Source: Sclerodactyla briareus (lineage: Eukaryota; Echinodermata; Holothuroidea; Dendrochirotida; Sclerodactylidae). From it: a DNA stretch of 64,000 nt. The notes under the pieces were generated by a model, which did no database searches, was not told the origin of the DNA, and saw only the letters and a list, made by a program, of their open reading frames with translations. Positions within the stretch are counted from its first letter, which is position 1. Each line of letters starts with the position of its first letter. The position numbers and the translations under genes were made by a program. Below are positions 6,515-62,026 of the stretch, in pieces. The stretch covers positions 147,328 through 211,327 of the forward strand of contig JAODTK010005376.1 of assembly GCA_026419785.1 (NCBI GenBank). The letters are read 5' to 3'.

Positions 6515-7698
6515 ATGGTTGCCACTGAGTCTGAGAGTACACTGACACTATTTGTGCTTTGTTCTTTGCTGATTACTGTTAACGGCATCGTATTTGAAAA
6601 TCAGTGACTATGATTTGAACAGGATTGTATACGAAACCGAAAATATCAGGATGACGTGCAATGCGGCAGAGATCCGCAATCCGCAGATTGTTATCAAGCA
6701 CAATGGTAGGAATGTGGAACAAATCAATAATAACTTTGTTTTACTAACACAGAAAAGTTTCTGGATGGAGCTGATGATATATCGGTAAGTTGAGTCTGCT
6801 GGAAAGTAGAGTGTATGGTTCTAATATCAGGGTGTGTCGGAGAATAGATCATTGATAGTGAACGTTACTCCAGGAGGACGTGATTGTCTTCAAAATGAAG
6901 CAACCTTGACGAAAATAGAAGGTGCACATTTCACCCTTCACTGCTACTTTTGGTGGTTTGATGTTAAATTCAAAACATCAGTGTTAATGGGACTACGTGG
7001 AATGCAACAATTGGCCATGTGTCATCACCGCTAACTGGCCCATCAGATATAACACGGGGAGTTGTTAAAGGAACTATAATCCTCATGTTGGACCACTGGC
7101 ACTTTCGGCTATGACTAGCTTACACTTGTGGGTCACCCACGGCCCATTGGGAACCCCTCGTGTAGCCTTGGTCCTATTTCGTTCAACCAAGAACATCATG
7201 AAAACACCCACGATTTACCTATCCTTCTCGAAAGACGACCGGATATCCCGATGGGGGGATGCTTCCCTCCACTACCCCCATCAACTACAGTGGATCCACG
7301 CTCTGCCTCTTTCCCCTAGTGCATCCGTTGTACTCGAAGCGAATTCATGCCGCAATGGTTCTATTATTATAGTCTCTTGTTTAGCAATCGTTGTTTGTCT
7401 ACTGCTGGATTGTCTTGCATTATTGCTACAGAACGCAGTCTAAGGAAACAGGAAGAACCTCATAGGGGTGGTGGGCCTACACCCATTAACCCTGTCAGTA
7501 AGAAGTCTCATACAGATTTCATCCACGACTGGCCGTATCGCAGAGACAGCCGCTAGTGCGCCATCGGACAAAATCGGGGCAGCTCATGCGGAGATGAAAA
7601 CTGGCGAGGAGATCGATCTTGGGACCGTGAATGTTTACTCCAAACAATTTTATGGCGAGGAGGAGGCAATGGAGGCTGACGGATACTGTGATGCCTAG
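6515..7698 (+). CDS. Y-family receptor-like protein, two Ig-like domains, one membrane helix (copy 1)
   Basis: This is a predicted type I cell-surface protein of roughly 390 residues if indels are ignored. The ATG at 6515 starts a signal peptide with hydrophobic core LFVLCSLLITVNG (cleavage probably near the NG). Ig-like domain 1 (about 6590-6880) shows strand B ENIRMTCNA and, comparing with copy 3, strand F GEYECMVL. The strand C Trp is not visible. Ig-like domain 2 (about 6880-7130) shows FTLHCYFWW and YTCGSP. A stalk follows, then a hydrophobic segment at 7357-7440 (SIIIVSCLAIVVCLLLD) and a tail ending TVNVYSKQFYGEEEAMEADG before the TAG at 7696. At least four frame breaks occur along it. 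Copies 1 and 3 break at different places, which favours sequencing indels. No introns are needed. The ligand and role are unknown; an immune or adhesion receptor is an inference from architecture. Confidence 0.6.
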
Positions 7699-9130
7699 AC
7701 TAGGTGAATTTGGTAAACACGAGATATCTAGATCGAGAAAACAACAGACATTTACCATGTCACTCCATTTTCCACCCCTCTGGGTCTGGGTAGTGTAGGA
7801 AGATCACTCATATGCTGACAGTGATAGCTAGAACTTACTCGCCGATCGGAGCATTGTGGAGCAAGATGGACTCACGCCAAGGGCAATCGCAGAAATGAAT
7901 CACGCTCGCCTAAACATGTGCACGAGAAGGTAGAAAACCACAGGAACTACTAAGTTACTGTTTTATCTGGTCGTACGATAACTAATAACATCATCCTATT
8001 GTGAATATAGTACTATGTACGATACTAAAGTCAGGAATTAGAAATTATGTTTGTGCGGGTACCACACACAACGGTAGTCAGTAGTTTCCATTTTGAGAGT
8101 CATGGTATGACCGGCAGAAATCAAACTCTGGACATGACAGGCTCCTGAATGCACGTCGCATCAAGGGAAGGTCGGCAAATTGTCGTTACGTTGTAGCATG
8201 TCTGGAAGTTCTAGCTTGGATGAGAATTCGCGTTCCAAAAAATTATGCCTCAAGTGTTTGTGATAGAATGGGTCTGTCGTCGGTCAGAAAGTTAATGTGA
8301 CGTCGGCCATATATTGTTTCATCATGTAATAGGTTTATTGTCAATATGGTGGTTTGAACGGAGGGGTGAGAGGGTGTTTTTTAAATATTTATTACTTATT
8401 ATATCCATACTGGATGATCTCCTAAATATCATGTAGGCGGAACACCACGGTAGTACGGCCTATAAACAGACCCATTGGGATGGACCGACTTGGAATACAT
8501 CACCCCTGGAACGATAGAATAATCCGTGCCTATGTATAGTAGTTAAGGGGTTGGTTAATACTGGGATAGAGTCGAGATGAAGGTTAGTACGATTAAGTTG
8601 TCCGTACTTAGTAACTTTAGGTCGGATTAGGTTTAAAAGTTTTTAGGACATAAGAGAGGTGTGAGAGATGATATGAGAGGGGTATGGATTATTCCATCAT
8701 ACGGAGCCCTGGACATAACCTACTAGACTGCAAGTCGGGTGCTTCGTGATGTCTTAGAAGCCAAATGCATTGTGAAAAGAACGTGTGGCATTTTTCCGTA
8801 GTCTTAAAAATGCAAACTGCAATATTAGGGTAGTCGACTTTAGCGAAGGTACGGAATAATAACAACAGAAATCTCTATTGGCTTGACAATATTAATAGCC
8901 CATCTAGCCGTAACCATGCATATAATCTGAAACTTCCGATGTACGCTACCAACATGTTACTCTTAAGAGTGAATCGGCGTGCCCTCAGGTAATCGTGAAC
9001 TTGCCCTCAACTTGCCCGTAAAAACTATGGAATATCAGTCAATATTTACTATATAGTCCATACAATGAATTATACTACATCTTTAGATGAACTAGATTAG
9101 ATTACACACAGCTTAAAGCCTACCTCACAC
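7699..9130. other. 3' flank of Y gene, shared with copy B, no gene seen
   Basis: This aligns with about 62027-63640 throughout. I see no ORF with recognisable features. Conservation with B is similar to that in the gene itself, as expected of a recent duplication. Confidence 0.6.
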
Positions 9131-9139
9131 TATTAGCCT

Positions 9140-9600
9140 ACGGAGTCACGCCGCCACGCTTTAAGGTCGCCGCTGGCGACGACCGCAAGCAGCGGCCGTA
9201 AGCTCCTTGCGGCTCCTTGCGAAATTCACTGCGGTCGAGTTCCCAGACAGTGACTGTATTGTTTTGGACGCGCACTGGGTGAATTCACAGCAGAAGACAC
9301 ATGGGGATGTCTCCCATTTCAAAGGGTCTGTTCGTATGTCATCCGAGAATTATTGGAGGAAGTTGACCACTTTCAGTGGAAGCTATTCGAGCTTACATTC
9401 TGCCCATGCTTGTGATTATCTGCCACGACAAAATTCGCCGCCAGCGATTGCGACCAGCGGCCGAGCTCCAGTGGCGACGGTGTTGCGGGTCATCCGCCCC
9501 ACCCGTTGCGAGCTCGGGAAGCGGATGTGTCCCATCGCAAGGCCCCGCAAGCCTTGCGGAGAGCAACTTCCGCACAGTGCGAGGACGGTTTCAGATAAAC
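9140..9600. repeat. GC-rich element with GCGACCGCAAGC motifs
   Basis: This is a GC-rich island in an AT-rich flank. On the left are CGCCGCTGGCGACGACCGC and CTCCTTGCGGCTCCTTGCG. On the right are GCCAGCGATTGCGACCAGCG and GGCCCCGCAAGCCTTGCGG. The two sides look partly inverted relative to each other, so it may be a decayed inverted-repeat element. Its left half is also present in copy B (63645-64000). Precise ends were not found. Confidence 0.35.
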
Positions 9601-9659
9601 CTTAATACAAACAAGTTCCTCGACCATCTGATGATAGTCCCACTATTCCATTGCTGAAA

Positions 9660-12150
9660 GCCAGGGGTTTCCTAAGAGCTTATCGGTGAAGGAAAGAATT
9701 TGGAATTGGCATCATATACCTGGCTACTCATTTAGCGTCCCATAGTCTGCCAGTGCACTATATATAAACACCTACGCGAAGATAAGTCCCAAATTAATCA
9801 ATAATTCAATCCGCCATCAACGATAAGACACCAGATCGTCTCACTCGATGGTGGCTATATCATCACTGGTACTTATAAAAGTGTATAAACCACGAAGTCA
9901 TTAAGCCTGAACAGAAAAGATGAAATGGAACGGAAGCCAGTTTTGTTAATTATCGTTACGTTAAAAAGAAGGGTACCAATATGAGGTAATATGAATTCGA
10001 ATCGAATCAGATCAGGCACTGTGGTTTTCTTCATACTCTACACTCAGAGACGCAAAATGCCAAAATGAGTGTTAGAGAGTTGAAGAAATTGATGTTCGAC
10101 ATGCATGCATACATAATACGGATTCCAATAAAAAAGTGGATGAGGGTCCGGATTCTCGTTAGTGACCTCGATTAAACAGGAAGGCAGTGTACAGAAACAG
10201 CAAAAATGGAAATCGAACACAGGACACACTCACCTAATTCACTCACTCGCTCCGATAAACGCCTCCTCCGGGTAAGCGACCAGGCCTGCGCCTGACCCAT
10301 ACCACACTTCCTTTGTAAGGAATCCAATTCTCGCCTGGAAACACAAGAGTGCCAACAACACAGAGCTTCGTTTTCCCGGCTCAGATTCGTGACCGCGGTC
10401 CCACTAACTAGTGACCTCAGGCGCCCATTTTTGCCAGCTTAGGCATCTACTAACATCGCACGAGACATACGATACAGAGTCACTGATGGCGTTGCCGCCA
10501 ATGTATCGAAGAAGAGAGGAAACCTAATTATTCAGCGACCTCAGCCTTCTCAGCCAACAAACGAACCAACCCGGCAGCACTGTTGAAGAGATGACAACGA
10601 AGGAATAGTCTTAATAGTCTGAAGTCGAAACGTAGAACCCCCAAAAATCGCTCCTTCGTTTCAGTTCTGTTAAATACATTAACGTAGATTGGGATGCTCT
10701 AGTTCCTTGTAAGAGATAATGGCTGTGGGTAATTGATGGACTGTGCCTCACAAAAATCGAGAACGAAACAATGAATACGAATAGAATACAAAACCGAGTA
10801 GTCAATCGATTTGGAAGCTTCGTATGGACAAGCGGCCCCTGAGTTTTCAGCAGATCCATAACTTTCATCCTTTCAGTACGGTAAGGGTGACACGTTCTCA
10901 ACAAGTCAACATGGTGCAACACGCATGAAGAGGAACTCAGTCCACCTTTATGATGAAAGCCCCTATAAATAGCAAAATAGTTGCTCTGAGAAAAAGGTTA
11001 TCGTTTGTATTCAGCGTATGTTTCAGGCACTGAAAGTAGTGTGACATTTGGAATTATTACAGTCGGGGAAATTTAACCCTGTCCTGTCCAATAGAGCAAT
11101 GAGGCACGAGCAAGCTCGAGGCATCTCTGGATGTAGTTCATACTCACGATTCTTTCCACTTATCACTTACTCCGGCGCCCGGAGCCCTTCATTGGTAAGC
11201 ATTTCACAATCTACAGGCGGTGCAGCAACCAACCATCCTCTTTGATTTTAATGCTCTGGCAGCTTTGGGGATCAGCTTTTTTTCAACCCCCTAAAGCACC
11301 GAGCCCTGTGGCCCCCTCACCTCAGATTCATTCGTCAGATCTCGCCAATCAGCTGCCTTTGCAGATGAGCAGCCGCCAGGCGAGTTGCCGGGGACTTCTT
11401 GATTGCCCTGCAAGCCATGTGTTACCATGTACCAGAGAGATTGTCGTGACCATTTGTAAAATTGATGAGGCAACGTAAATATACCGTATAGATCATGCCC
11501 AACAAAAATCATGCTTGAAGGAATATTTTAATTTATTTCCAGTACGAATACCTCAGATACCCGTTCCCACAGCCCCAGCGATGACTGAGTTGCAGGCTGC
11601 AGTCCATGGTATGATAGCTTCAAGTTTTTTTTAGGACAAAGTGGAAGCCAGGATGGTTCATTGGAAATTCTATAATATACTGATGTATATATCACTAGCT
11701 GCCCGTTTAAGGTAGGTCGAGAAAAAAATCCTATATTCCCCTTATGGTGACAGAGGGTGTTCGTTTTCCCTTGTTAGTCATAGACATTGCCCTCAAATGA
11801 GTCGATTAGGTTTACAGGGCCACGATAGATCGGAATCGGTCAAGTAAATAAGAAGTAAAGAAGAAAGCGAACCCTAGCACGCACCATGTCTCGCTAATTC
11901 AGCACACCTAAAGTCATCCATTTCTAATGTGTAGTCCGAGTGGCAGCAGTCCTTATCGTTCAACCGAGATCAAACGAAAATCACTATCATTTCCACAGGG
12001 GGCTTAGAGTCTCTCCAAAAGACGACGAACAACAAATCAAATGAGCGGTGGGTGGGGTATTCACCCACTCTCGTCCCATGCTATCGGTTTAGTTGTCTCT
12101 GCCGACCTTTACATGCATGGCGTGTGTTACCAGTTGACGTCGACGCAACA
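9660..12150. other. No gene recognised
   Basis: This is unique-looking sequence with only short ORFs. A GTAAGC splice-donor-like site follows a short open stretch near 11195, and a TTTATTTCCAG acceptor-like site lies near 11540. Neither is joined to a recognisable coding piece. Confidence 0.5.
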
Positions 12151-12257
12151 GTAACCTCACCATTAAGTGTTCTGTTTTCAGCTCTGCTTCCAGCAGATCG
12201 GTGATGTCTCTGCTGGACTCACCAGTTATAATATGCTATAGATAACGGAATTAGGTA

Positions 12258-12590
12258 GCACAAAGAAGTCATCAAAACGAGATGTTGAGCCTACATTGTG
12301 CCTGAACGAACTGTGAGTGGGTGGACTACACCATCATCTACGATGGCCGAACATGGGAGGGTGGGGGGACCTCCAGTTACGCCACCGAAACAGGTACGAA
12401 TAGAAATTGCTCGAACAAAGGACTCTATCGGAGACGAGATAGGTCCAAGGTGGCTACTGTTCACTCCACTCCAGCCGGAGGAGGTAGGGTACCATCAGCA
12501 GAGCAGGGATGGTGGAAGCTGGGATCATACCTACTGTGATCGTAACCAATTTGAACTTCAAGTACTGAGGAATATCAACGATTTGAAATA
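12258..12590 (+). CDS. X-family C-terminal coding piece (tandem copy 1)
   Basis: An open frame runs to the TAA at 12589, ending GSWDHTYCDRNQ plus a short tail. DNA comparison with 13733-14025 shows the same blocks in order: GTAGCACAA-AAG, GAGCCTACAT, ATGGCCGA-C, a GACTC block, TTCACTCCA, GCCGGAG-AGG, then GGGATC-TACCTACTG-GAT. It is also related, more distantly, to 59852-60033. The final G-x-W...C pattern occurs in several extracellular modules, including CCP/sushi domains, but the match is too weak to name. An acceptor-like TTCTGTTTTCAG at 12170-12181 precedes it, so this may be a last exon. AATAAA overlaps its stop region. Confidence 0.4.
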
Positions 12591-12594
12591 AATT

Positions 12595-13635
12595 GAATCT
12601 CAACTGAAGATTGATGAGTTACATACGGCGAGCCATGTAGTCTACATCCATTTGCGTGAAAAAACTGCCACCCTCTCTGATAAACAGATAACATATTGAT
12701 TCAGCTATGACGCAGATCAACAGAGCTTTGGATCCTGCTCTATGGAATAGGGAAAGTCAGGCTAATAGGTGACTTTAGTTGTAACTTACCCACGCGGGTC
12801 CTCCTGACTATTGGAGACATTTGCGCGAATGAATTTCAGCCCTCCTCTTTGTGCTTCCCATAGTCAAAAGATAATCCTGAGTCTATGAGGGATTTAAAAA
12901 AGGCGTCTCGTCAGCTCAAATCACGTTCTCGTCCGCGCCCAGACTGAGCCCGACCCAATCTCTCGTCTGCACGGTCCATTCAGCCTGCTCCGGATCCGGT
13001 GTCACAGGAGACTGCTGCCGTCTTTATGTGATTATGCCGAGTCTGATATTTCCAGTTTAGTCATTGGGTATTACTACAGATGCAAGACCTTTGGTGGCCT
13101 CTCGTAAAACCAAGTGAAAACGTGAAATATTGTTTGCGTGTAGGGTTTACCGAGCAGTCATACTGTGCCACCAGAAATTACGGGGGGAAGGACAAAAAAA
13201 AAAATCGTCCTAATAGGCGTCCCGTCGCAGCCCAAATGTACGAGGAAGGAAAAAACAAGTGTGAACATGCTCTAGCGCCACCTATTCATGTGACCGTGAA
13301 CTTCACGTTTCAGGTGGTCAAGTGTTTAGTTTGGACGCCCTTGATCACGAAGCTAGTAGTCGCTGCTTACCCGATCATTTTTTACGGTTCTTAGGTGCAT
13401 GAAAATACATGGATTGCCGGCTGGACTCCCTCGCCCCTTTTGGCCTAACGTTGATGACCGCAGTTATTCACAAAACGGTAAATCCGCTAAATAAAAAAAG
13501 GGTAATTGCCGTCTCAGTTCACCTTCGTGGGTCAAAAGGTTATAGCGGTCATTTGTATTTGATGAACTGCAGCGGCGTCTATTACAAGGGTTTATGTCGA
13601 AGGAGGGATGGGGGGGGGGGAGGGTCAAAAGACAT
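12595..13635. other. Spacer between the tandem X copies
   Basis: I see no recognised gene. Short similarities occur inside it (AGGCGTCTCGTCAGCTCAAAT near 12900 and AGGCGTCCCGTCGCAGCCCAAAT near 13216), suggesting nested duplication. A G10 run lies at 13611-13620. Confidence 0.4.
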
Positions 13636-13732
13636 CATCTCCAATTACCAGCTTGTTCTGTTCACAGCGATCATTGTTTTCTCTGCTGAACTCCCATTCA
13701 TCATCTGATATACTATCACAGTGATTAGTGGC

Positions 13733-14025
13733 ACAACAAAGCAGTTATCAAACGAATGTGAGCCTACATGGTGTCAACCGAACGGGGGTGGGTGACTAAC
13801 ACATTCATCAGACTGATGGCCGATCTGTGCGGGACCTTCCATTCGCTACGAAAGACAAATGGAGTCCTCACTCGGGCGAAGGGACGCTACCGGGAAAGGG
13901 GAGAGATAGATCCAGAGGTGCACCGTTTTACTCCAATCTATGCCGGAGAAGGTATTGTTAAACCCCCCCGCCCCAGAGCAGTTGGAGAATGGGAGATCGT
14001 ACCTACTGCGATACTAACAATTTAG
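13733..14025 (+). CDS. X-family C-terminal coding piece (tandem copy 2)
   Basis: This is the second member of the local tandem pair, about 1.47 kb from the first. It shows TNTFIRLMADLCGTF, corresponding to the TEFIVRLKGLAGEF stretch of the copy-B piece, then GEIDPEVHRFTPIYAGEG, corresponding to the GDEIGPRWLLFTPLQPEE of copy 1. The frame stops with TAG at 14023. Both tandem copies are followed by a similar sequence (ATAAA, then GAACTGAAGATTG). The start is undefined and no signal peptide is visible. The function is unknown. Confidence 0.4.
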
Positions 14026-14094
14026 CCGTCGTGCATACCGATGAATAAACGATCGAACTGAAGATTGCTGCGTTACCTACGTATTTAAAAGCTC

Positions 14095-14172
14095 ATGGGC
14101 TCCACTTGATTCGAACTGCGTATTCCGAGTCCTAAACCTACTGCAAGGCCCTACCAGTCGAACTATAAGCCA
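14095..14172 (-). repeat. tRNA-like (SINE-head) sequence
   Basis: On the minus strand, GGCTTATAGTTCGACTGGTA resembles a D-arm and A box. About 40 bases later CAGTTCGAATCAAG resembles a B box and T loop. The acceptor stem and anticodon arm are poor, so a decayed tRNA pseudogene or SINE head fits best. Confidence 0.35.
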
Positions 14173-14179
14173 CTGGTGG

Positions 14180-15620
14180 TTTCAACCCGAGAAACAAAAG
14201 TACACGGTTGCACGGATCAGCTGAAAATACCCCTCAAAATACTCAAATTTCGCTCATTTTTTTGTTTTGCCATATTTCGTTTTTTCGTTTTTTTTCGCAA
14301 ATTTCGGTCTATTCTATTCCTAATTTGTGCTGGAGAGTCTTGCTGACCCATCACAGTCTGTCCAAACGTTTCCTGGAAGAAAAGCTTCCGTCAGCTAGTT
14401 TCACCCCTACCCCGTTATCTTCTGAACACCGGTCCGAGAATAGGATGCGAGTTATATCGCCACTGCGTCACATCTAATCTGCCAGGTTACCTGGTGCCGC
14501 CCTAATTGGCTTCCTTGAACCAGTGGAAAATCTAAGAGCTCGATCGAGTTCGGAACGACGTATTATGTATATGACTATCACGTCACACCACTTTTCTAAC
14601 TGTTGTTCCCTAAGCCTAAAGAGGTGTTTCTTGTTCTTCGGAAAGAAAAACCCTCTTTATGATATGATATGGACGTTGCATCCATTGTACTGTACCAGGT
14701 ACAGTCTGACATCAGTAGTGTAACATGCTGATATTTCGCTCATAATTTTTCGTATGTCGCCCTCTTCTTCTGTAGGTCTGTACCGTAAACTGGGGATATT
14801 TGGGCATGTAGGGGTAACTCAGCAGGTACCTGAACACCCTTGTTTTGGATTATCGCCCTCTCCATAGTGCTGCCAATTAAGGTGTTGTTATATCTATTCA
14901 AGGTAAAACTTAACTTATTATTTGGTTAGAGTATGAGGCCAAATTAGACATATTCCCCCCTAATTTATATATTTCGAATGCACCTAAATATGCCTCTAGT
15001 TAGGGCAACTAAACTGTAATAAAAATTCGGCCTTCCCATTTGATCCCAGCATTCTGAAAGTCAAGTCTACGTAATTTACCAACGACTTAAACATTTTTTT
15101 TTTTTATTTTTTTTTTTCACAGGAACCCGGATCTTTCTAAACTGTGACGTCACATAAACCTTCTAATATTCGAACATGTTTATTACAGTTGTTCGCTCAT
15201 TTATTGATAGTCGGCGTGCGACCTAAGCAATTAAGGATGTACAACAATGAATTAACGGAATGATCAGGTAGAAGCTTTTTTTCTGAGTATTTTTTTCTTT
15301 TCAAGAAATATATTTCAATAAATTGTCGATATACTAAAATTTGTTTGTCAAAAAACACATAGCAATTTCGCAGAACCGGCACTTGTACAAACTATGCCAC
15401 GACATCATAAGAGTTGACAACTGGGAAGATAGGGTCCGTTTTGTAATTGAAGACTCTAATGAATAGGCCTTATTTTGCATACATGCCTTACTTTATATTT
15501 TTGGTTTAGGTCACGTAAAATTTTGATTACTGACGGAATAAATAATGTGTAGTTGGTATTTAAACAATGGCTTTTGAAAACTGCCAAGTTACCCAAATTT
15601 CGAATTTCATTTCATATGTT
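14180..15620. other. AT-rich, no gene recognised
   Basis: The segment holds T-rich tracts (for example 15094-15119) and short ORFs only. I see nothing else. Confidence 0.5.
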
Positions 15621-15631
15621 TACCTTGCCCT

Positions 15632-15735
15632 CAGGGCGGATCCAGGTTTTCGTTAGAGGGGGCGCCAAAATGATCACTAACTATTGCTAGAATATATGGG
15701 GACGCAGGAGGCGCGAAGCCCCCAAATCGGGGGGG
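15632..15735 (+). mobile_element. Possible hAT-like transposon end
   Basis: It begins CAGGGCGGATCCAGG and runs into a G-rich stretch and a GGAGGCGCGAAGCCCCC hairpin. CAG-G-CG starts followed by G runs are typical of hAT-type ends in many animals. No matching partner end or 8-bp target duplication could be paired. Confidence 0.35.
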
Positions 15736-17195: not shown

Positions 17196-17329
17196 TGATA
17201 GCATGCACAAAAGAAACTCGCTCGTGAACGTGGCCTTCAGTTACAGTGCGCCTATGCGGCATAGGCGTAATATTGTACTGGGACTTTGTGGGGTTTTGGA
17301 ATTTTATTTGATTTTTCCACTTACAATAA

Positions 17330-18560
17330 GTGTTAAAAACTATCACACCAACAACATTTTTTATTTTTTTCACAAGATTTGGTTAGGGAACGGCCCCCAC
17401 CCCCCCCCTGCAACCCCCCCTCCTCATCTTTTGAAGGATTTGTTCGAATCCGATAAACTTGATTTTCGGTACAATTAAATTCATGCGTGGCATATAAGGA
17501 ATCCAAAAAAATCGATGCAGAAAAACAAAAGCACGCGCGCGAAGCGCGTGAAATTTTTGGGTTTTGAGTTGACTTAAGTGTTAAAAACTATCACCACAAC
17601 ATTTTTCTTGGGGATTTGGGTGAACATGTGCCCCCCCCCCCCCATCTACGAAGATTTGTTCGAATTTTTTCCCTTTTCCGCGAACTTCACTTTTTGGTAC
17701 ATTAAATTGATGCGTGGCATATAAACGGGTAAAATGAAACTGACGAAGAAAACCAGGCACGCGCGCTTGGCGTCTCGAAGATTTTGGTTTTTTTCTTACA
17801 TAAGTGTTAAAAGCTATCACCACAACATTTGATTTGTTCACACGAATTTGATTGGGGGAAGTGCCCCCCCCCTCCCTTTTTTCCGTTTTTTAAATTTTTG
17901 GGGGGTGAATACTTGATTTTCGGTACAAGTAGATTCATGCGTGGCATATAATCTGATCAAATGGAAATGACGTAGGAACACAACACGCGCGCAAGCGCGC
18001 AAAATTTTTGGGTTTTTGATTTACACAAGTGTTAAAAACTATCACCACAATAATTTTCATTTGGGGATTTGGGTGACAACCCCCCCCCTCCCATCTCGAA
18101 GATTTGTTCAAAAAAGAATCCGCGAACTTCCGTGTTTGGTACCTTAAATTGATGCGTGGCATATAAACGGGTAAAATGAAAATTTTAACGAAGGAAACAC
18201 AGCCAGGCGCCGCGTGGCGCGCGAAGATTTTGGGTTTTTTCAGTTACCTAATAACTAGGATTGATTTGGGGAACGTGGCCCCCATCTGCGAATACTTGTT
18301 CAATCCTCGAACTTTACTTTTGGTACATAGATCCATGCGTAGATATATCATCGGATCAATGAAAAGCTGACGAAGACAACATCGCCACGCGCGCGAAGAG
18401 CGCGAAAAATTGGGTTTTTCATTTACACAAGAGTTAAATACTATCAACCCCACATGTTTTATTTTAACTCTTTTCCACTAGATTTGATTGGGGTAACGTG
18501 CTTCCCCCCCCCCCCGAGCTACGAAATTTGTTCGAATCCGACCACTGATAGTTTGGTCGT
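17330..18560. repeat. Satellite, about 225-bp units with GC-rich hairpin
   Basis: AAGTGTTAAAAACTATCAC or close variants mark unit starts near 17330, 17577, 17802, 18026 and 18428, with a shortened or eroded unit near 18240. Each unit goes on with a C-run, GAAGATTTGTTCGAAT, a GGTACA stretch, ATGCGTGGCATATAA, and then a palindromic GC block such as CACGCGCGCGAAGCGCGTG near its end. Unit lengths are about 247, 225 and 224 bases, the rest compressed. ORFs crossing it are artefacts. Confidence 0.85.
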
Positions 18561-38989: not shown

Positions 38990-40420
38990 TCTATCCTTTT
39001 GTTTTCTCTAGTTTGGTTCAGTGCAACAAGGTCATTAAGGACAAAATCCTCATTAAACACCCTGAAGCCACAACATCCCACAATAAGAACCCCAGAATGC
39101 CTAAGAATTTCGCCCACATTCTTGAAAAAAAAAACTAACTCAGTAACAACACTTCAGGAAGGCTATTCCCTCAGTAATGCACTCTCTGCCTGCTAATGAA
39201 ATAATCTAACGAATGTCCAATAATACAGCGTTTACCATTACCATGAAATTAGACAATTCACGGTACAACTACTGGTTTACAACTCCTGGTGGTACTTAAC
39301 GAAATATTGAAATGCCAGGCCCTCGAATCCATGACCAATTTTAAAAAACCCTTAATCAAGATCCTCGATCGCTCAGCTACGGTCGAAGTTAGCCGAGACC
39401 CCCTATCGTCATGTAGTAATCCTCTGAACAGTGAATTAATCCATGGCACATCCGCTTAAACGTGTTCACTTACCTACTTCATTCTTTTTTTCGAGAAATG
39501 CCATACTTGGACAGATTCTCCGCAGTCTCATCACCAGCTGCTTAAACATCCTGGCAACAATATATTCATCAAGGAAACTGAAGTGTCGTCCCTAATCAAA
39601 GCCAAGAATCCATTACCTCTTCTCGATTTCAGTACGCTGCTTTGGGTGTTTCCAAGAAGAATCAAACAACTCCGATTTTTTATCTTTTCTCCTTTTCTGA
39701 TCACCTTGATGAAATTTCCTTTTAACTGTGAACGAAGGCCTTTGCCGATTGTGGAAACCAAGATGCACAACTTTGCACTTATCAGCATTAAGAAACAAAA
39801 AATTGCCAATCGAAAGACCATTCGGAGATTATATCCAATGCTTTTTGGACAATTGCAACATCTTCGGTTCTACAGCAACCTCCTCCCCGATAAACCACTT
39901 GGTAGCGTCCCAAACGTTTTAACTCTGCGGAATGCACCGAAATCTCTCAAGATCGGTCAATATACGGTCCAGAAAAAGTAAATGCCTAAGAACTAATCTT
40001 GGGGACAACTACAAGTGACCCTTTGCAAAGGAGAAGAACGCCCATTGATTGACTCACGCGTTGTTCCTAGTGCTAAGCCCTGACGGAATCCACTCAAGGA
40101 AATTGCCTTAATGCCAGAACTTTCCAATTTGGGCAAGAAACGCTCACGAGGAACCTTTGTCAAAGCTTTTTGAAAATCTAGGAATATCATCTCTACACAG
40201 CACTGTCTTGTCAACTTCAACTGCACCAGTAACAATCTTCCATAATCCATAGATTATAAGAGTTAGTCCCACCACGAACGTTTTTCTTAAAACGGCATAG
40301 CTGAAACCCCAACGCCCGATTAGACTATACTCCATTTTGAAAAAAAAATCGCATAGTACCCGAATAAGGATTCCAGCACCTTGCAGGCCACACTAGTAAG
40401 ACGCACTGTCACTGCCGTGA
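38990..40420 (-). mobile_element. CR1/L2-like retrotransposon, RT domain to 3' end
   Basis: The minus strand shows, in order: LIGRWGF and KIVTGAV near 40240-40330 (before the palm); VEMIFLDFQKALTKVP at about 40150-40196, which is RT motif A with its Asp; a degraded VPQG region near 40000; NADKCKVVHLG near 39756-39789, which follows the YADD motif; and the 3' block GGGATGTTGTGGCTTCAGGG near 39070. Stops and frameshifts are many. It lacks the endonuclease and ORF1, as is usual for 5'-truncated copies. It is the same family as 51895-53200. Confidence 0.8.
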
Positions 40421-48464: not shown

Positions 48465-49077
48465 TCTATCGACGGTACCTTCAGGCATGCGCTCCGACAC
48501 TCGACAGGTACCCTTACAAATTGCCAGGCTTCGTCAATCGACATGGTACCTTTCATGCAAGGTCTCCGTTTCTCGACAGGATTCCGCGCCGCGGCCCTCG
48601 GGCACTCGAAAGATACCTTCCTGCAAGCACTCCGTCGGGCTCGAAGGTACCTTCACTGCATGCGCTCGTCTCTCGACAGGTACCTTCACTGCATGCGCTC
48701 CGTCATCGACAGGTACCTTAAGTGCATGCGCTACGTCCCTGGACAGGTACCTTCACTACTGCATGCTGCTCCGTCACTCGACAGTAACCTTCAACTGCAT
48801 GGCGCTCCGTCACTCCGACAGGTATCCTCACCGCATGCGCTCCGTCACTCGACAGGTACCTCTGCACGTGCATGCGCTCCGTCTCTCGACAGGTAACCTC
48901 ACTGCATGCGCCTCCGTCACTCGACAGGTACCGATTCAACACTGCAGCGCTCCGTCCTCTACAGGACTTCATCACTGCATGCGCTCCGTCCTCGACAGTT
49001 ACCTTCACGGCACTGCATGCGTCTCCGTGCACTCGACAGGTTCTTTCACTGCATGCGCTCCGTACTCGAACAGTAGC
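48465..49077. repeat. Minisatellite, 34-38 bp units
   Basis: There are about 18 units of the form CGACAGGTACCTTCAC followed by TGCATGCGCTCCGTC, most with KpnI (GGTACC) and SphI (GCATGC) sites. Unit length varies from about 32 to 40 bases, mainly by short indels. The first units (48500-48640) are the most divergent and the central ones the most alike. A 220-codon ORF crosses the array, but the unit length is not a multiple of three and the frame meaning changes between units, so it is not taken as a gene. Confidence 0.9.
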
Positions 49078-51735: not shown

Positions 51736-51764
51736 GGCGAATTTTTAGTGGGTCCGTTTCTTTT

Positions 51765-51870: not shown

Positions 51871-51894
51871 TTATACATGAGGCTACATGTCTCA

Positions 51895-53200
51895 GTGTTT
51901 AGTTTACTTTAGTTTAGTTTAGTTTAGTGGAAAAGGGCAGGAAATGACAAAATCCTCATGAGATACCCTGAATCCACAACATCCCAAACAGACGAGAACA
52001 ACCCGATGCCTGGAAATTCGCCCATAAGTCTTGAAATAAATCTGTGAGAATAAATAATTTCCGGATGTCATCTAATCGGCGCTTTACCACGAAGCTTGAG
52101 CAAATGGACCTCCGATTATGGTAACTTTGGAAAAATTCAAAACAAATAGTGTAGGGAAGGCTCTCGCATCCATGAACACTTTTAAAAACCGGAATCAAAG
52201 CACTCTCGAATCGTCTCAGCTCCATAGAATCCTTAGAACCGAGACGCCCTTTAATCTTTCTTCCTCGTAAGGAATCTCTAAGACAGTGAATTAATCAAGT
52301 GGCCCTCCGCTGAACGTTTTCAATCACCTGCTTGTCTTCGAGAAATATGGATTCATACTTGGACAGAATACTCCATGTGAGGTCTCACCACTGCTTAAAC
52401 AACCTGACAACGATTATTTTTACAAGGAAACTGAAGTGACGTCTTCTCATTCAAGAATCCATTACCTTCCCTAACCTTCAGCACACTGCTTAGAATTGTG
52501 GGTTCAAAGGAAGATTAAAGAATGAAAAATGAATCACGAGTTCCCTTCGAATGCACCTGATGAATAGTTTTTGCCCAGTTTATCCTTAAAGAAGGCGTTG
52601 CGATTGTTTGAAACCACATGCAAACTTTTGCAGCTTACCGGCATTGCAAAACATTTGCACAATCGAAAATCATTTGGAGTTAATCCAAATCCTTTCGGAC
52701 AATTGCAACATCATCTTCAAGTAACCCACCTCCCATACAAACTTGGTATTGTTCGTAATCTGGAATGCACCGAATCCTGCGATCGTCACTTACGTCATAA
52801 ACAGACAACGCCCAAGAACCGATCCTTGGGGAACACCGTCTAGTGAACTTTTGCCAAGGTGACGAACGGTCCATTTAATGACAACTCGTTGTTCCCTATT
52901 GAGAAGCCACTGACGAATCCACTCAATGACAATCCCCTTAATGCCAAAACCTTTTCAATTTACGCAAGAGACGCTCATGAGGAACCTTGTCTCCAAAGCT
53001 TTTGGAATCTAGGGAAATTATAGCAACACGCCGTTGTCACTGCACTAGTGAACTCGTCCATAAATTCGCAAGAGATTAGTCCAGACACGAACTATTTTTC
53101 TGAAACCATTGAAAAATCGACAATATGATCCCCGAATACTGAATTCTAACACCTTGCAAATAACATAATTCAAGACTCACGGCCTGTAATTACAAGCTTA
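51895..53200 (-). mobile_element. CR1/L2-like retrotransposon, RT domain to 3' end
   Basis: The minus strand carries an intact RT motif B, VPQGSVLG, at 52811-52834. It also shows NELSLNGPFVTLAKVH-like sequence before it, SMELRRFESALIPVF near 52190-52230 (thumb/C-terminal region) and the 3' block near 51950. It ends in a clear TAAAC/CTAAA tandem tail at 51897-51930 (plus-strand TTTAGTTTAGTTTAG), the kind of short 3' repeat typical of CR1/L2 elements. It is 5'-truncated and many frames are broken. It is collinear with 38990-40420. Confidence 0.8.
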
Positions 53201-53209
53201 TAGAATGAT

Positions 53210-55710
53210 GAACAGGCTAGAGTTTACTAAATCGGTTGGCTTTCTTGTGAATGAATAACGTTTTATTCTATATGGTTATTTTCACAGCGTACGTGGTGCA
53301 GTAATTGACGGTGTGCCCAAACTTTTGACATTTAGAGGTCTTTGTATAGATTACCCTGTTAGTGAGTGAAAATGACTAGAATCCTCATTAGGTAAACACC
53401 GCTGACCGGTATATAACTACCTCTAGATGATCCTTTTTCCGGAATATATTTGCGACCTTAATCATTCATTTGGCTATTGTTTATCAGGCTTGTTTTACTT
53501 GTTTCTTCCGTCCCCTATCTCTATTCAGGATTAACCCCGGAATACATATTGTCAGCTGCTTCTGGGATTACCGATACGAAGTTGTTGAGCATGTCGGGTT
53601 CCACGGTTTTGGAAGGGAGTCATGGTATTAGACTTGCCCAAGTATCTCGTGCGTAGGTCTCAAACATATCCAAGACGGCAGGCGCTACTACCGAGGTTGC
53701 TTCTCAATCATTCCGCCCCTCGGAACCTGCTGCAAAGAGCGAAAAATCAATCAATCGTCAATCAATCGATCCGTGCGAACTAATCAAGTGTGTTTAAAAT
53801 TAGAGGTCGTACTACAATCGGGCTCTGATTAAGGCAGAATGGGATAGTCCTATAGGATGAAACGTTCACGAGAGACTTGGGCAAGTCTATGGTGGTATCA
53901 TCGCGTTGGAGATCGTGTTGATTGAGGCAAACGTCCAGGATCAGATTACTAATATAGAAACATATACTTTGTAAATTAAAAAAGAAGCTTATTTGTTCCG
54001 TGATCCGTCGGTGGTCAAAAGCCTGAAGAATGATTGGTCGATATGGTAGTCGAGCCGGACGGTCACTCAAAGAAAGTTCTTCGGCAGATTTTTCTGTTCT
54101 TTAAATCAGAGATCCTACTAATTACACACAACGTGTGTTTATGTTCCCTGCCTAACTGTGTATTCTACGACGGCGAATGGCGTCAATTTCAACCGTTGTG
54201 TGACGCTCCGGCTATAGTTCCTCTAGTGGTGAAAGTTTGTACAGCTGAGACTTTGTTGATCCGTTGCCGTATGTCTCCAAGATGTATTAATAGCATATAA
54301 CCCACTGGCACTCGCTGTCCGTCCGTGGTCTCGTCACTGTATACAGGGGTTCCGTATACTGCTACCGTGCCAACTCCCGACAACAGGGAGAGGAGGGCCG
54401 ACGAATTACACGCCAGGAAAAAGTGTTTAGACAACAAACAAGTTTGAACGCTATTTGGCACCGTCTTTACAATGTGTTTTCGAAATGTTGCAAAACGTCG
54501 TTCAAAAAAGCGGATAATTCCTAACACATTGCTGTGCGATTTCGTGTCGGATGCAGGAGAGCCTGTCAATGCAATCATGCATGCGCTGCGTTATAGTGTG
54601 TGTGCGTGCGGGTGTGTGTGCGTGCGTCTGCGTGCGTGTAGTGTATATGACACTCCGGCCAGCCCGCATACTAACGAAGCAAGAATGTGCCAGTTGCAAT
54701 GAAGTAGGTTGCTTTTATGTTGGGGATGGTCCTATGTTTTTTTGTTTTTTTTATTTTATTTTTTTTTAGGGGGGAGGGGGAGGGGGTAAGGCGAAGTCAT
54801 TCAGGATCGTGAGGGGGTAACTTCGAGAAGCTTGTCAGCAACAAGTATGAAACGCAAGTACATATTAGGTTCGAAACGCGTATGTAGGGTGTAATATGTA
54901 TTTAGTGTGAGATCAAAGTCAATCAGGTCTCTACTTCTCGATACGAGACAATATTGTTATAACTTGGCAACGAACCATAACGGGACAAGCGTAATGGCAT
55001 TGTTTTGTCGTATGTGCAAACTGTGACTTACTTCCGCTTATCACCGCTGAGATAAGGAACTCATAAGGCCCATATCTCCGAGCGGGGCAGGTCGCTCGGG
55101 TCAGATGTGACCAGTCTTGCTACTTTCGCGAGCAGGTTTCACGGGGTCCCGGTAGAGGACATCATGCGGGCGGCAGCGGGGAAGACTCCCACGACGTTCG
55201 TCTGCCCGCTGCCTCCTCCCAATAACAGTCTCGGCCGATATCTTCCTTCGCCAGGGCTTGTTAACCACACAACCTCCACCCAACCCCTTCTGTCTACGCC
55301 TAGTCCACACCAATCGTGACCGCACGGTCCCGCCTCCTGTGGCCCTGTGCTAGTCTGGTGCAAAGGAAATGTGGGTTACGTTTGAGTAAAGTGAAAATAA
55401 TTTTTCACAACCCTCTCCCTGGTTTGTGAATCTGTGAGCTACCAAATACTCACCCATATTGGTGCGTTCCGCCCAACCGTCCCCACGTCCGTCCGGCCAT
55501 CACGTGCGGTCTCCTTCGTCGACCACGGGGGCTTCGCCCTTTCATTCCCTTGGACTACTCGGCTGAAAAATAGAAGGACGTGGGGTTGCACCCGACTTCC
55601 GTAAGATTGCCAGTGTAATGGCGCGGGGCGGGGTTGCAAAGTGCCACTATTGAGTAAGTATCCGTAGCTCACAGATTCACAAACCAGGGAGTTTTTTTGT
55701 GATTCTGTGA
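53210..55710. other. No gene recognised
   Basis: A TG/TGCG-rich tract lies at 54595-54650 and T/G runs at 54738-54790. The ORFs (up to 129 codons) have no recognisable features. Confidence 0.45.
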
Positions 55711-55714
55711 CGGA

Positions 55715-56200
55715 TGTTGACCAAACTTTGACCCAATGTTGTGACTTTGGTGAGGTCAGGGTCAAAGGTCCTTAACGGGAGCAATATAGGTCATTATGTG
55801 TTTTTCCCAACTGTATCTCCTACCAGTACATCAGATTTCTTGAACTGTGTCATAATGTACTCTTTTGAGCCAGTTTTGCAGATTTGGATGCACATCATGT
55901 AGTGTCATTAGAATTAAAAACAGTAACATTTGATGACAGGACCCAATGTTCTGGACTTGGGACATCTTTGGACCATGTGAAGGTCATGGTCATGGGTCAT
56001 TAACGGGCAACAATAGGCCACCGTGTAAATTTGCTTTTCTCTTTCTCACTTGGTCATTCTTTTGATGATGTTGACCAACTGAGTAAAATGTTATTGAACC
56101 TGCTATTGCATCAGTGGCATATGAAGTCAATGTCAAAAATCGCTTGCAAGGGGCACAATGGCCATTGTTTGAACTCATTTTGGTCTCATGATCTTGACAT
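55715..56200. repeat. Two tandem units of about 240 bp rich in GGTCA
   Basis: GACCCAATGTT, GGTCAnGGTCA(A/T)nGG, TTAACGGG and AATAGG occur in order near 55730-55790 and 55940-56010. TGACC and GGTCA words are dense, as at 35.3-36.4 kb, though the units differ. The array stops just before the homology of Y copy 2 begins. Confidence 0.65.
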
Positions 56201-56244
56201 TTAACACATTCGTCTAGTTACATTTGTGCGGTGTGAATTACAGC

Positions 56245-57400
56245 ACCATTGTGCTCTAGTTTCTGGTCCTGTTAAAACGGCATCGTATTTGGAATCAGTG
56301 ACTAGTTTGAAACAGGATCGTATACAAAACGAGATATCAAGATGACGTGCAATGCGTCAGAGATTCACAATCCGCAAGATGTTATCCAAGCACCGGTCCG
56401 GTGGTAAAAATGTTGAACTAATCGATATAACTCTGTTTTTAGAACATAGGAATAACTGATGGAAATAATGAATAATTCGGGTAAAATTTGAGTCATGCTG
56501 GAGAGGGAGAGTACGAGTGTATGGTTATAATGATCAGGGTGTTTTTTGTGTTCGGCGGGTTTTAGATCCATTGATAGTTAGTGAACGTTGCCTCGCATGG
56601 AACTCCATGTCTTCAGAAAAGAAGAAGCAGAAGCAACCTTGGACAAAAGATTTAATTTTTATTTGGCGCAACATGTCACTTTACTGCTACTTCCCGTGGT
56701 TTGCTGATCAAGGTTGGGGTAACTAGGGAATATGAAACTACGGATGCCACACAGACCATGTGTCATCACCACTAACTGGTCCATCAGATATAACACCGGG
56801 CGGTGTGAAAGGAAAGGAAACTATATCCTTAATGTGGGACCATGAGGGCTTTTGAATACGGAACTACTACAAGTGTTGGTCACCCACAGCCAGTTGGAGC
56901 CTCTCGTGTAGGCCTCGGTCCTATTATCGTTTCACCCGGGACACAGCAGTAAGAAGACAGAAAGAAGAGCAGAAACGAAGAAAGAACAGAGCCACCAATC
57001 GATCTAACCAGTATTTCTCCAAAAGACGACCGAGCAGACAGCTCGAGGGGGGATGTTTTCCTCTTGATAGCCCCATCCTCTCCACGACTTTGCATCTTTC
57101 CTCCAGTGCATCGTTACTCCCAAAGCGAATTCAAGCAGCAATGGTTCTTATAATTATTAAATCCTCTGGTGTTAAAACGATCGTTGTTGGGTACTGCAGG
57201 ATTTGCCGGCATTATATGCTACACGAACGCAGTTATTGAGAGACGCATTTCAATAGGAGTGGTGCGCGCTAATTCACAACCCTGACAGAAAGAAAAGAAA
57301 GGCCTGACAGGGATTCATCATGCGACTGGCCAAACAACTGACGAAATTTTGACCCAATCCTATCGATTCGACATTTCTTTTTCAATTGTAGGATTTGTAT
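56245..57400 (+). pseudogene. Y-family Ig receptor-like gene, copy 2 (5'-truncated)
   Basis: DNA homology to Y copies 1 and 3 begins inside the signal-peptide coding part (TTGTGCT...CTGTTAA near 56250). There is no equivalent ATG or upstream region; the TGACC/GGTCA tandem repeat lies there instead. Further along, GATGACGTGCAATGCG (strand B), GGAGAGTACGAGTGTATG (GEYECM, strand F of domain 1), CACTTTACTGCTAC (domain 2) and CAGATATAACACCGGG are recognisable. The membrane and tail regions are present but broken (57150-57300). With many indels and no start, it is probably a pseudogene. It is followed within about 50 bases by the start of duplicated block B. Confidence 0.6.
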
Positions 57401-57814
57401 TCAGGCAATACAATACAGTAATATGGGCAGCGTCGTGGCTGGAAAGGAGGGTGATATGAAATGAAGGCCTGAATGGAACTTAATTGACAGTTAAATCCCC
57501 TGAACTGAAATGGTTGAATTGGCTGAACTGGAATTCCATATTGGAACTAATCCAGCTTCCCTTATTGATAATTGGGTGATGCAACCATGGCGAGAGCATC
57601 ATTAGATTTTGGCTGAATATGTGCCCTAAAATCATCCTGCCCCTATTTTAGGATTGAAAGGGACTTCGAGATTTGTAAGTCCGCTCCACTCCCGGCGATT
57701 AAGCCTTTGTCAACCAATAGCACAACAAATTGTTTGTATTGGTCTTACACTCTCAGAACTCTTGAACTGTGGTCGCCACGGGCGTCGCCAGAGATGGGTG
57801 ATCGGGGGGGGGGG

Positions 57815-58060
57815 GGGTATATCACAATCACCATTAAGTGGAGCGCCACCGAGAGTGACGCGGATCGTCCAAGGAAATTTCGGCACCTAGAATTCCCAGA
57901 TTAGCAGGGAGGTCGCCTCACCGGGCCATTCCATCAGCCATCAAAAATATCTCATAACAGCCACTTTTCTGTTCTATCATTTTGTCTTATGAGAATATTT
58001 ACAAATTTCTCATTGCGTGGAGAGGGATCTCTCGAACGACCAGCCTCCAACGACAATTTG
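57815..58060 (+). repeat. GGAGCGCCACC-motif dispersed repeat (in copy B)
   Basis: It corresponds to 660-930. A G12 run at 57806-57817 precedes it, as G runs precede the copy at 16935. Confidence 0.6.
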
Positions 58061-59851
58061 TATGGATCGAATGAAAGCCTAGGAAATCAGAAGAGCCATG
58101 CGTCGAAAAATGCGGCTGAAGATTCCACGTGTTTTTTTTGTGTTTTATTTTTCATTTTCAGAATAAGAAGTTGTTAATCTGTCCTTAGATCTTAAACTAT
58201 TCGAAAACACCTTTGGCAGTAAGTAATGTCAGTGTCTGCCCCATTTTGTAATGACTGGTGTAACTCGGCCAGGACTTACACCTCGGTCTCGGAGGAGAAC
58301 ACTGGAGACACCCCAGGGCTCCGGCGGTGAAAGACTGGCCAACTTTTATTGCATGTCCTGTTCACACTATGCATACGATACGATCTGATAATTTTATCGG
58401 ACGTCGAGTAAAAAAAATGTTATTTTCAATAGGAGTGTTCACACTATTGCGATACAATACAAAATTGATATCGACGTCACGCTGAACACCTCTTCTATTT
58501 GTTAAACTTTATTCGTATGATAAATTCATCGATGCGATGAATTGCGCAATGCATACCAACCTGCAAGAGTAGTAACGTCAAACGGGCTATTTTGGGACGT
58601 TTTGGCGTGAATGTACATCCGATAATATTATCGAATCGTTTATCGTCATCGCTCAGTGTGAACATGCTTTCAACCGCCATTCCTATGATAGGCCCTGCCC
58701 CAGGTGTCAAAGTAACACGGTACATCAGTACCAATAGTCCTCCGCTAAGTAGCCTACTGAGGAATCGTCAAATCTAATTTGATTTTCATTTATTTCCAAT
58801 ATGCGAATTAGAGAGATAAAACTCAGCTCAGTACTTGGGGACGAAATGCACTGGCGTCCCGCTCAACCAAAATTCGGGGAGGGGGTGACGCCTCCCCTCT
58901 TTCTTTTTCTCCCCTCCCCAAATCGCCTCGCCCATGTTTGATGAAGGATTAAGCGAATTAATCGTTTTCTCTTTCCATTCATTCAGAACGGTCGCAAATT
59001 TATAGTGCTCATATAGAGTACATTACCTTTTTTGTTAATTTTCTTATTATGTAATATAAATAATATGACTGTTCCATCTGTTAATCTGCTTAACATCTTG
59101 GATCATTGGTAACTCTGGAACTGCCCTTCAAGACCTGTCACAGTGAGTGTTTCTGAGCTGTGTTATTTAGCATATACCAACCAAGTAGTCCGGATCGATT
59201 CGCTTAACTGTTAACAGCCGGAACTGATTCCTGTGTAACATTAGCACAAGGGACTGTTTTCAAAGTAATTACATCAAGCATCTATATTTTCATAATACGT
59301 TATTCAATGTCGTTTTTGCACACTAACCACTAAAAGTTTTTGATATGTTTTCGACGTTGGCAAGAATGGAAAGCAAATTCGAATAAACAATGTAAATGAA
59401 CCCGTGTTCCGGTATAATATGTCTACCTCGAATGGTAACAAACAGTCCTATTATCGTACATGATTTCTCACCATTTGGGGGGTTGTCCTCTCCCAACACC
59501 AACCATCCACCTGAAGAGGTGGGACTTTTACCCAACTACTCTGGCCTTCAGTATTATTCTCGCTGGTTGGCCAGTAACACTGTCGTGAGGCGTTCGGCTT
59601 AATACCCACGAGGAAGGAGTACATACCGAAAAACTTAGTACAGTATGGTACCGTATGGTTAACGATAGCCGTTGCTTCCCGCTTTTGTGCGCTCAGCACC
59701 AAAAATGGGGGGAAAGCGAACTGTTGTCAGAGCACATACCCACAGCAGGTGGCCTGGGCGAGCTGCCGAGATCATCAGCCCCTCCCCCGCACAAGCTATG
59801 TGTAAGTGCACAGAGGAGTATCATAGCTTTCCTTTTCCTTATCCCCCCATG

Positions 59852-60033
59852 AGGTAGCACAAAGAGCCAACAACGTGTTGTGGGCATCATTAGGTGGACC
59901 TAAAGTGAAGGGTGGCTACACCGAATTCATCGTCCGTCTGAAAGGACTTGCTGGAGAATTCAAGTGCACCACTGAAGCCGACAAAACGGAGTCACTAACA
60001 GGACAGTGGAACTGGAAGACCATCGCTACTTGA
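59852..60033 (+). CDS. X-family C-terminal coding piece, copy B
   Basis: This is the best-preserved X copy. From 59896 it reads GYTEFIVRLKGLAGEFKCTT and on to ESLTGQWNWKTIAT, then TGA at 60031. Only 45 codons are clearly conserved. AGEFKC looks like an Ig strand F (compare GEYEC in Y), and G-x-W...C-like endings occur in CCP modules. Neither is firm. The DNA before it (GTAGCACAAAGAG at 59853) matches the tandem X copies at 12258 and 13733, which contain an extra segment of about 100 bases before the final Trp. No start or signal peptide was found, so it is probably a last exon or a remnant. Confidence 0.45.
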
Positions 60034-60798
60034 TGGACCAAATACACCAGCCAATTCTACCATATGGGTTCAAGCTTAGTAGCTTTTCAGGGGAGGAAAA
60101 AACTATAATTTTTGCCAAATTTGGTAATACTTGAAAATACCCCCTATTATTCAGCGCCAAGGGGCCTGAAATCAGATAAAACAAAATTACTATGAGAATG
60201 CATAGCGCACCGCGCTAGAATGTTTGGTAGGTGTCACGCTCTACTTGTGTGTAAAACGGGTGCATTCAAAAATGGCAGCGTAGTCGTCACGGAGCCACCA
60301 TTTTTGTAGGACAAATTTGGAAAAAAGAATGTCGGCTACACTGAGGCTGGCAACCCTGGAGTGATAATACCCCCACCCGAGACACCACACACATACTTTT
60401 CAGAAAGTTCGGGGGCGACGAGCGGCTCCACGCTCTAACGTCACACCCAGAGTTACTGAACTGCTGAATGCTGCGATGTAACCCACGCATGCATGCATGG
60501 ACTGGATTCATTATTTCAAAACCAATCAGGATCCTTTTCTAGGACACAGATTGTTTTTAGTGTCGAATTTGTTGTATAAAGGTATTTCAAGGACAGACAA
60601 TATGCTGTTTTGCCCGCCTTTTATACTCTGGGGAAATAGGGAATTTATGTTTAAGGATAGTCTAATGGATGTTAGAGATATATGGTTGAAGTTTCGTTGC
60701 AATTCTTTTGCTAAACACGGACAATCGCTCAGAATCGGCAGCTGCCAGAGTTTTGGTCTAAACCATTGCTGGCTTGTCAAGGGAGAAACATCATCAAC

Positions 60799-62026
60799 AT
60801 GGGTGACACTAAGAGACACATAACACTATTTGTGCTTTGTTCTTTGCTGATTACTGTTAACGGTTATCGTATTGAAATCAGTGACATGATTGAACATGAT
60901 TGTATACCGAGCACGAAAAATATCAGATGCCGTGCAATGCGTCAGAGATCCCCCTAATCGAAAAATGTTATTCAAACACAATGGTATAAAAATGTTGAAC
61001 TAATCCATAATAAACTTGGTTTTAAGGGGAGGGAAAGGAAGTAAACTGGAGGGAACTAAGATAAATCAGGTTAAAGTTGAGTCATGATGGAGAGTACGAG
61101 TGTATGGTTCTACATGATCAGGGTGTGTCGGAGACTAGATCATTGATAGTGAACGGTGCTCAGGAGGGGCCCGTATGTCTTCAAAAGAAAAACCTTGACG
61201 AAAATAGAAGGGTGACATGTCACCTTTATCGACTGTACGTGGTTCCCCGGTGATTTGGGAGAACATTAGTGCTTATGCAGCCGTGGAATGAACAACACAT
61301 GGCCAGTGTCATCACCACTAACTGGTCCATCAGATATAAACACCGGGAGGTGTGAAAGGAACTATATATCCTGTTAATGTTGGACCACTGAGGCTTTTGA
61401 ATAACGAAAATTACACGTGTGGGTCACCCACAAGGCCAGTGGGGGGGGAAACCCCTCTGTAGCTTCGGTCCTATTATCGTTAAACACGAACAGCAACAAA
61501 AAGAACCACCATTCGATCGAACCAGTCTTATCAAACCAGACGACCGAAAATCTCGAGGAGGGTGCTTCCCTCCATACACCCATCACACTACAGTTTAATC
61601 CAACACTTTGCATCTTTCACCTGGAAACATCGGTACTCGAGAAGCGATTCATGCAGCAATGGGGCCATAATTATTATAGTCCTCTTGGTTTAGCAATTGT
61701 TGTGTTCTGCTGGATTGTCCGGAATTATTCGCTTAACAAGAACGCAGTTATTAGGAACAGAAAGAAGCCATCAGTAGGAGTGGTGGGCCCTACATCACTA
61801 ACCCTGATAGAAAAGAAAGCACTAACACAGATTCATCCTACGACTGGCCGGTAATCGCAGAGACAGCACGATAGTTGCGCCATTGGAACAAATCGAGAGA
61901 AGCAAGCTGCATGCGGAGAATGAACACTGGAGAGGAGATCGATCTTGGGACCGTGAATGTTACTCCAAAAATTTATGGCGAGGAGGAGCAATGGAGGCTG
62001 ACGGATACTGTGATACCCTAAATAGG
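60799..62026 (+). CDS. Y-family receptor-like protein, two Ig-like domains, one membrane helix (copy 3)
   Basis: The ATG at 60799 opens MGDTKRHITLFVLCSLLI, a good signal peptide, followed by YRIEISD. Domain 1 has IRC-type strand B near 60930 and an undamaged SHDGEYECMVLHDQ (strand F) near 61080-61115, followed by GVSETRSLIVNG. Domain 2 keeps ENYTCGSP near 61409-61420 by DNA and frame comparison. A 145-codon frame (61417-61854) covers the stalk (EEGASLHTPITLQF), the membrane region (GLAIVVFCWIV) and the first part of the tail. The C-terminus reads TVNVTPKIYGEEEQ before a stop near 62023, a different frame from copy 1 at the last residues. It is intronless like the others. Broken frames probably include sequencing errors. 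Confidence 0.6.

Follow-up and report, generated by a model that had tools for sequence, protein, structure and literature searches.

The 64,000-base stretch of Sclerodactyla briareus DNA analyzed here (the window; bases 147328-211327 of contig C2687, in an assembly of 319 Mb and 3171 contigs) contains three homologous stretches on the + strand, designated A1, B and A3, whose positions, proposed in a first-pass annotation, are borne out by self-comparison and alignments. A1 reads as a type I membrane protein of ~412 residues with two immunoglobulin (Ig)-like domains (D1 and D2), a stalk, a membrane helix and a tail. We consider it likely that this is a genuine animal gene with a single coding exon and at least two diverged members, one represented by A1 and the other by a locus on contig C1723, with A3 lying in a duplicated block and B being a fragment.

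Layout of the intronless reading

Gaps open between the window copies at a rate of 0.107-0.135 per aligned base, that is every ~7-9 bases, and as often in coding as in non-coding DNA, so that all readings are frame-hopped; no open reading frame of at least 150 amino acids overlaps A1, A3 or B, and no domain is covered by any single frame of the unchanged window translation. Between the two copies of the duplicated block, 110 transitions and 201 transversions are counted in five compared stretches, close to the expectation for random error; taken together with the gap rate, this ratio indicates that the assembly resembles barely corrected long-read data, whose frames need hops to be read. The readings reported here come from frame-hopping alignment against a guide, a 412-residue composite protein assembled from the window copies and largely from A1, and their scores are partly circular, the guide being derived from the same copies and favoring A1.

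A1 reads guide residues 1-412 (396 of 412 residues, 20 by frame hops) with 0 stops. The reading spans 1.2 kb, leaving introns no space, and, as first proposed, it runs from a signal peptide through two Ig-like domains, a stalk and a helix to a tail with no intron required. On the composite, these elements occupy residues 1-24 (signal peptide), ~35-120 (D1), ~128-228 (D2) and ~291-316 (helix), with a stalk of ~60 residues ahead of the helix and a tail of ~95 residues extending to position 412. Residues 1-28 of A1 stay in one frame, and hydropathy of the composite peaks at the signal and at the helix, the latter reaching up to 3.35 over 19 residues. Eight N-glycosylation sequons are found on the composite; its tail, the reading of which is limited by frame errors, shows by eye no instance of [SIVL]xYxx[ILV], the form taken by the tyrosine motifs of immunoreceptors (immunoreceptor tyrosine-based inhibitory or activation motifs, ITIM/ITAM).

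Table 1. Features of the window, with positions counted from its first base.
Feature	Position	Strand	Description	Basis
Copy A1	6515..7698	+	Intronless frame of ~412 amino acids with frame hops, TAG stop	
Signal peptide of A1	6515..6586	+	MVATESESTLTLFVLCSLLITVNG	One frame, no hop; hydropathy
D1 of A1	6599..6880	+	I-set-like Ig domain (limits approximate)	Pfam Ig_3, PDB profile
D2 of A1	6881..7190	+	V-like Ig domain (limits approximate)	PDB V domains, weak
Membrane helix of A1	7370..7445	+	Limits approximate	Hydropathy on composite
Copy A3	60799..62026	+	Same frame as A1, inside second block copy	
Copy B	56269..57331	+	Fragment, ~residues 22-356, lacking the signal peptide and the end of the tail	
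Block, first copy	1..9420	+	Begins 107 bases before the window	
Block, second copy	57336..63933	+	Terminates in the dispersed repeat that closes the contig	
Dispersed repeat	55736..56262	+	Start approximate; its end stands in place of the 5' end of B	
Transposon-like repeat, 1.39 kb	4692..6081	+	34-base inverted ends, AGGCCTAAAA...	Self-comparison, genome search

Domain assignment and the second locus

Pfam matches D1 of the composite to Ig_3 (E = 5.4e-4), and an unmodified one-frame piece of A1 gives the same match at E = 0.0057. Against the PDB, a profile of four readings finds neuroplastin as its best match (E = 2.5e-4), followed by VEGFR2, PTPRD, a nanobody and CSF1R; Ig proteins fill 16 of the 18 rows up to E = 1, the other two being chemokines. 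D2 of the composite matches V-set_CD47 in Pfam at E = 0.081, under the cut-off, and, when searched alone against the PDB, returns five matches at E ≤ 10, all of them nanobody V domains and each weak (E 0.51-1.1). By sequence profile the protein would belong to the immunoglobulin superfamily (IgSF), with D1 assigned in fair confidence as an I-set-like Ig domain and D2, with less confidence, as a V-like one.

A genome search with A1 DNA matches contig C1723 in two pieces within positions 2769-3533 of its minus strand, which are 69 and 77% alike, longer pieces of the two loci being 63-69% alike. Frame-hopped against the guide, the C1723 locus reads residues 25-405, scoring 252 where five shuffles score 70-87 and the reversed protein 98, and has the domain order of A1, with no intron between domains from ~residue 25 to the tail. 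Because both loci are without introns from that residue on, the intronless state predates their split. The proposed frame of A1 is the best of six against C1723 (224, versus 109-162 for the five others) and stays so with equal masking (178, standard deviation 10, versus 109-146); this masked test covered C1723 only, the six-frame comparison for A3 and B being unmasked. A and C1723 resemble each other in the tail stretch GE[E/K]IDL...NVYS and also in the 3' flank, up to A1 position 8021; the flank scores 89, and the highest of ten shuffles scores 24.8. Upstream of residue 25, homology is only suggested, by one alignment that extends through the ATG and ~70 bases of 5' flank (A1 6441-6719). Together with the modest Pfam and PDB profile matches and the hydrophobic signal and helix, this divergent locus of the same domain order supports the earlier description of an intronless, receptor-like gene encoding two Ig-like domains. 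Within the shared 3' flank, C1723 carries ~1.1 kb (1386-2504) that is extra relative to A1 and is either an insertion or an intron in the 3' untranslated part.

Several results weigh against reading these copies as an intact Ig gene. The Pfam matches lie under curated cut-offs (20.8 versus 30 bits); three of four short pieces, two D2 pieces among them, have no Ig match in Pfam, and Ig_3 is absent from two of the four member readings, the best match of the others being at E = 0.0022. Searched singly against the PDB, the composite yields a single Ig protein, at E = 0.012, along with two that are unrelated. At the second locus, three stops interrupt the frame of the reading, which also needs 50 hop codons and 51 inserted ones; the signal-peptide stretch taken alone does not exceed chance, 12 of 200 shuffles reaching its score, and the 5' flank scores 23.1 versus a shuffle maximum of 29.3. 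None of seven comparisons reaches significance in codon-position tests on DNA only, that of A1 with C1723 giving 0.257 at third positions versus 0.211 and 0.215 (p = 0.31), so that selection on the protein is not demonstrated; the protein-guided excess of synonymous changes in the C1723 comparison is biased by the guide. Among the window copies, protein-guided synonymous counts, in which the guide favors an excess, exceed the null when A1 is compared with A3 (p 0.04) or with B (p 0.009) and not when A3 is compared with B (p 0.14), and three-way column counts of A1, A3 and B vary with the choice of reference. Since sequencing error alone would produce differences of this size among these three copies, codon-position and synonymous tests between them are uninformative.

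At such an error rate, a pseudogene and a gene are indistinguishable. Every copy might have decayed, each being a pseudogene of an Ig gene sited elsewhere, a state with which the stops or frameshifts present in each reading, the truncation of B and the non-significant codon-position bias would all be consistent. Indels are, however, as common in the flanks as in the coding part, and sequencing error therefore accounts for them; moreover, the proposed frame is the one best kept between A1 and C1723, and the signal peptide of A1 lies in one frame. On this balance we regard general decay as unlikely, and retain an Ig gene with a single coding exon as the preferred reading.

The repeated block and copy B

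In self-comparison, window positions 1-9420 align in the same direction to 57445-63933, and the alignment extends upstream of the window for another 107 bases, to 57336. The resulting block of ~9.5 kb carries the gene plus both flanks, and a genome search finds it twice, both times on contig C2687 (among the best 40 of 1054 candidates, most of which match the end repeat). A3, in the second copy, reads guide residues 5-411, hopping frame at 51 codons and meeting one stop. Ungapped identity of the block copies is 0.935 in the coding part versus 0.917-0.944 in five flank stretches, and inner mismatch is 0.088 versus 0.054-0.075, the coding part not being better kept. The transposon-like repeat of 1.39 kb, which has ~30 near-full-length copies elsewhere (among the best 40 of 79 candidates), is found in the first block copy only, the matching site of the second (~60369-60399) being without it; self-comparison shows that the second copy lacks, in addition, a stretch of ~1.4 kb (1548-2962). 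Contig C2687 ends at 211327, the final base of the window, which places A3 only 2 kb from the end of the assembled sequence, and it finishes within a dispersed repeat that starts at 63615. A run of 94 T at 62689-62782, perhaps a read artefact, occurs in the second block copy only.

B matches A between 56269 and 57331 only and, when frame-hopped, reads guide residues 15-356 of 412 with 43 hop codons. A dispersed repeat aligns across its supposed signal peptide and ends at 56255-56265 in all 15 of the listed rows that cover the repeat (best 40 of 1531 candidates); because the bases before ~56262 belong to this repeat, the apparent start of B at guide residue 15 is due to chance. A signal peptide common to the three copies, as initially described, is found in A1 and A3, whereas in B the dispersed repeat stands in its place. 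At the opposite end, the tail of B halts at the block boundary (57331 versus 57336). Since its inner mismatch with A, 0.107-0.125, somewhat exceeds the 0.088 between A1 and A3, B is taken as a separate copy; in the present assembly, it is a fragment. Just upstream, positions 55037-55703 are occupied by a dispersed repeat that contains inverted stretches and has many copies, at 73-78% raw identity.

For the second block copy, a false duplication, in which an allele or a chimeric read was placed at the end of the contig, and a large duplication of recent date are about equally probable, and the same holds for the cluster as a whole: that it is an artefact of assembly is, in our estimate, as probable as its opposite. 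Under the artefact reading, the A1 region would be repeated in the final 6.7 kb of the contig, attached behind B either as its second allele or as a single chimeric raw read; the animal would have one A gene, and its B may be complete. Consistent with such an origin, the second block copy reaches the contig end, B ends where the block starts, the differences between the block copies look random, both in their transitions and transversions and in a coding part that is not better kept, and A3 needs more frame hops than A1, although the guide favors the latter. Divergent alleles that are falsely duplicated are a known source of false gene gains (PMC9516828). On the other hand, the adjoining region 9700-13600 is single in the assembly except for a repeat of ~45 bases, so that unmerged alleles are not general here; the presence of the transposon-like repeat in the first copy only is explained equally by alleles or by paralogues, and with a true duplication, too, a contig would naturally break within a dispersed repeat. 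The locus illustrates how a contig end in an unpolished assembly can make a single gene resemble a tandem family.

How the gene may have arisen and what it may do

The genome was searched with A1 DNA, with the protein and with the C1723 locus, and no further members are found among the matches listed. The last of these searches returned only C1723 itself and A1 among the matches listed; the protein search listed the window copies only and, having missed C1723, is insensitive. As far as these searches reach, their counts being lower bounds, the family appears small in this assembly. Instead of the clustered, duplicating family put forward in the first-pass annotation, the cluster consists of a single block, duplicated at the end of the contig, plus one fragment, and several complete diverged copies side by side, as in a tandemly amplified receptor family, are not observed.

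The intronless copy expected of a retrogene is found in A1 and A3 from signal peptide to tail, and in C1723 from ~residue 25, where the start codon region is covered by one alignment only. The protein genome search, which also missed C1723, gives no intron-bearing parent at E ≤ 1, and no poly(A) tract is seen by eye past the end of the A-C1723 homology at 8021, an old copy being one that may have lost it. A retrogene origin is possible but unproven, reverse transcription being one possible route to the intronless state and intron loss another. The fuller scenario initially suggested, in which reverse transcription of the mRNA of an Ig gene with introns yielded a copy that later underwent tandem multiplication, would fit the lack of introns in A and, from ~residue 25, in C1723, as well as the presence of two or three copies within 56 kb. 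We nevertheless hold it to be improbable: in addition to the lack of a listed parent and of a visible poly(A) tract, B is fragmentary, one diverged copy is the sole other locus among the matches listed, and the block copies carry flanks on both sides, so that amplification, if real, copied a DNA segment rather than the gene alone. It would also be surprising to find here a young, forming recognition locus, in which a lineage-specific intronless Ig receptor, with an I-set domain followed by a V-like one and a conserved tail, is truly in a ~54 kb tandem duplication and diverges via truncated copies. A viral origin of the gene was considered and rejected, a four-row alignment scan of viral contigs having yielded no confirmed relative (one peptide pattern; two stretches matched, neither confirmed).

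To judge from fold and layout, the product of the proposed gene is probably a surface recognition or adhesion protein. Its most likely work would be to bind a partner at the cell surface through the two Ig domains, in adhesion or recognition, with the tail connecting to the cell inside via GE[E/K]IDL...NVYS, the likeness of which in A and C1723 hints at an intracellular binding site. Of the recognition or defence role first envisaged, recognition stands as a fair guess from the fold, and nothing here points to defence. The protein resembles IgSF membrane proteins of the neuroplastin/basigin type in having few Ig domains, one helix and a tail, and D1 in the four-row profile best matches the third Ig stretch of neuroplastin, a likeness that goes no further than the I-set fold; it differs from them by its V-like D2 next to the membrane, its long stalk and its ~95-residue tail. 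The genes of neuroplastin and basigin contain introns.

Intronless Ig genes are already known, and the proposed gene would add another. Human FIGLER 3, 5 and 7 are, among others, intronless IgSF genes whose integration via reverse transcription is suggested by the authors (PMC2094703), and AcFREP1 of the mollusc Aplysia is cited as an intronless Ig gene (PMC11999971). The likeness lies in an Ig-domain protein coded in one exon; FIGLER differs by its leucine-rich repeats and fibronectin domain (PMC2094703), and FREPs by their fibrinogen domain (PMC7588048). Pfam gives no match at E ≤ 1 for leucine-rich repeat, fibronectin or fibrinogen domains in the present readings. Among the papers listed in a literature search, which says little because it was made without the species name, none names the present family. 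If expressed, the gene would represent one more Ig receptor without introns, and could serve studies of the origin of such genes and of their possible role in recognition.

Remaining features of the window

No tRNA is found in the window, nor any Rfam family at gathering score. The assembly as a whole gives no COX1 match, in a search whose control was positive in 8 of 14 genomes, and so offers no reading of the mitochondrial code. Next to the block, the element of ~45 bases (10251-10312, core 10261-10305) is 85-97% kept at 14 places in other contigs. An array of ~17 copies of a 33-base unit extends over 48469-49069, and the open reading frame of 220 amino acids found there is probably just repeat. 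Self-comparison also reveals a pair of direct repeats of ~1 kb, at 39317-40291 and 52158-53105, and a local tandem repeat at 17307-18541.

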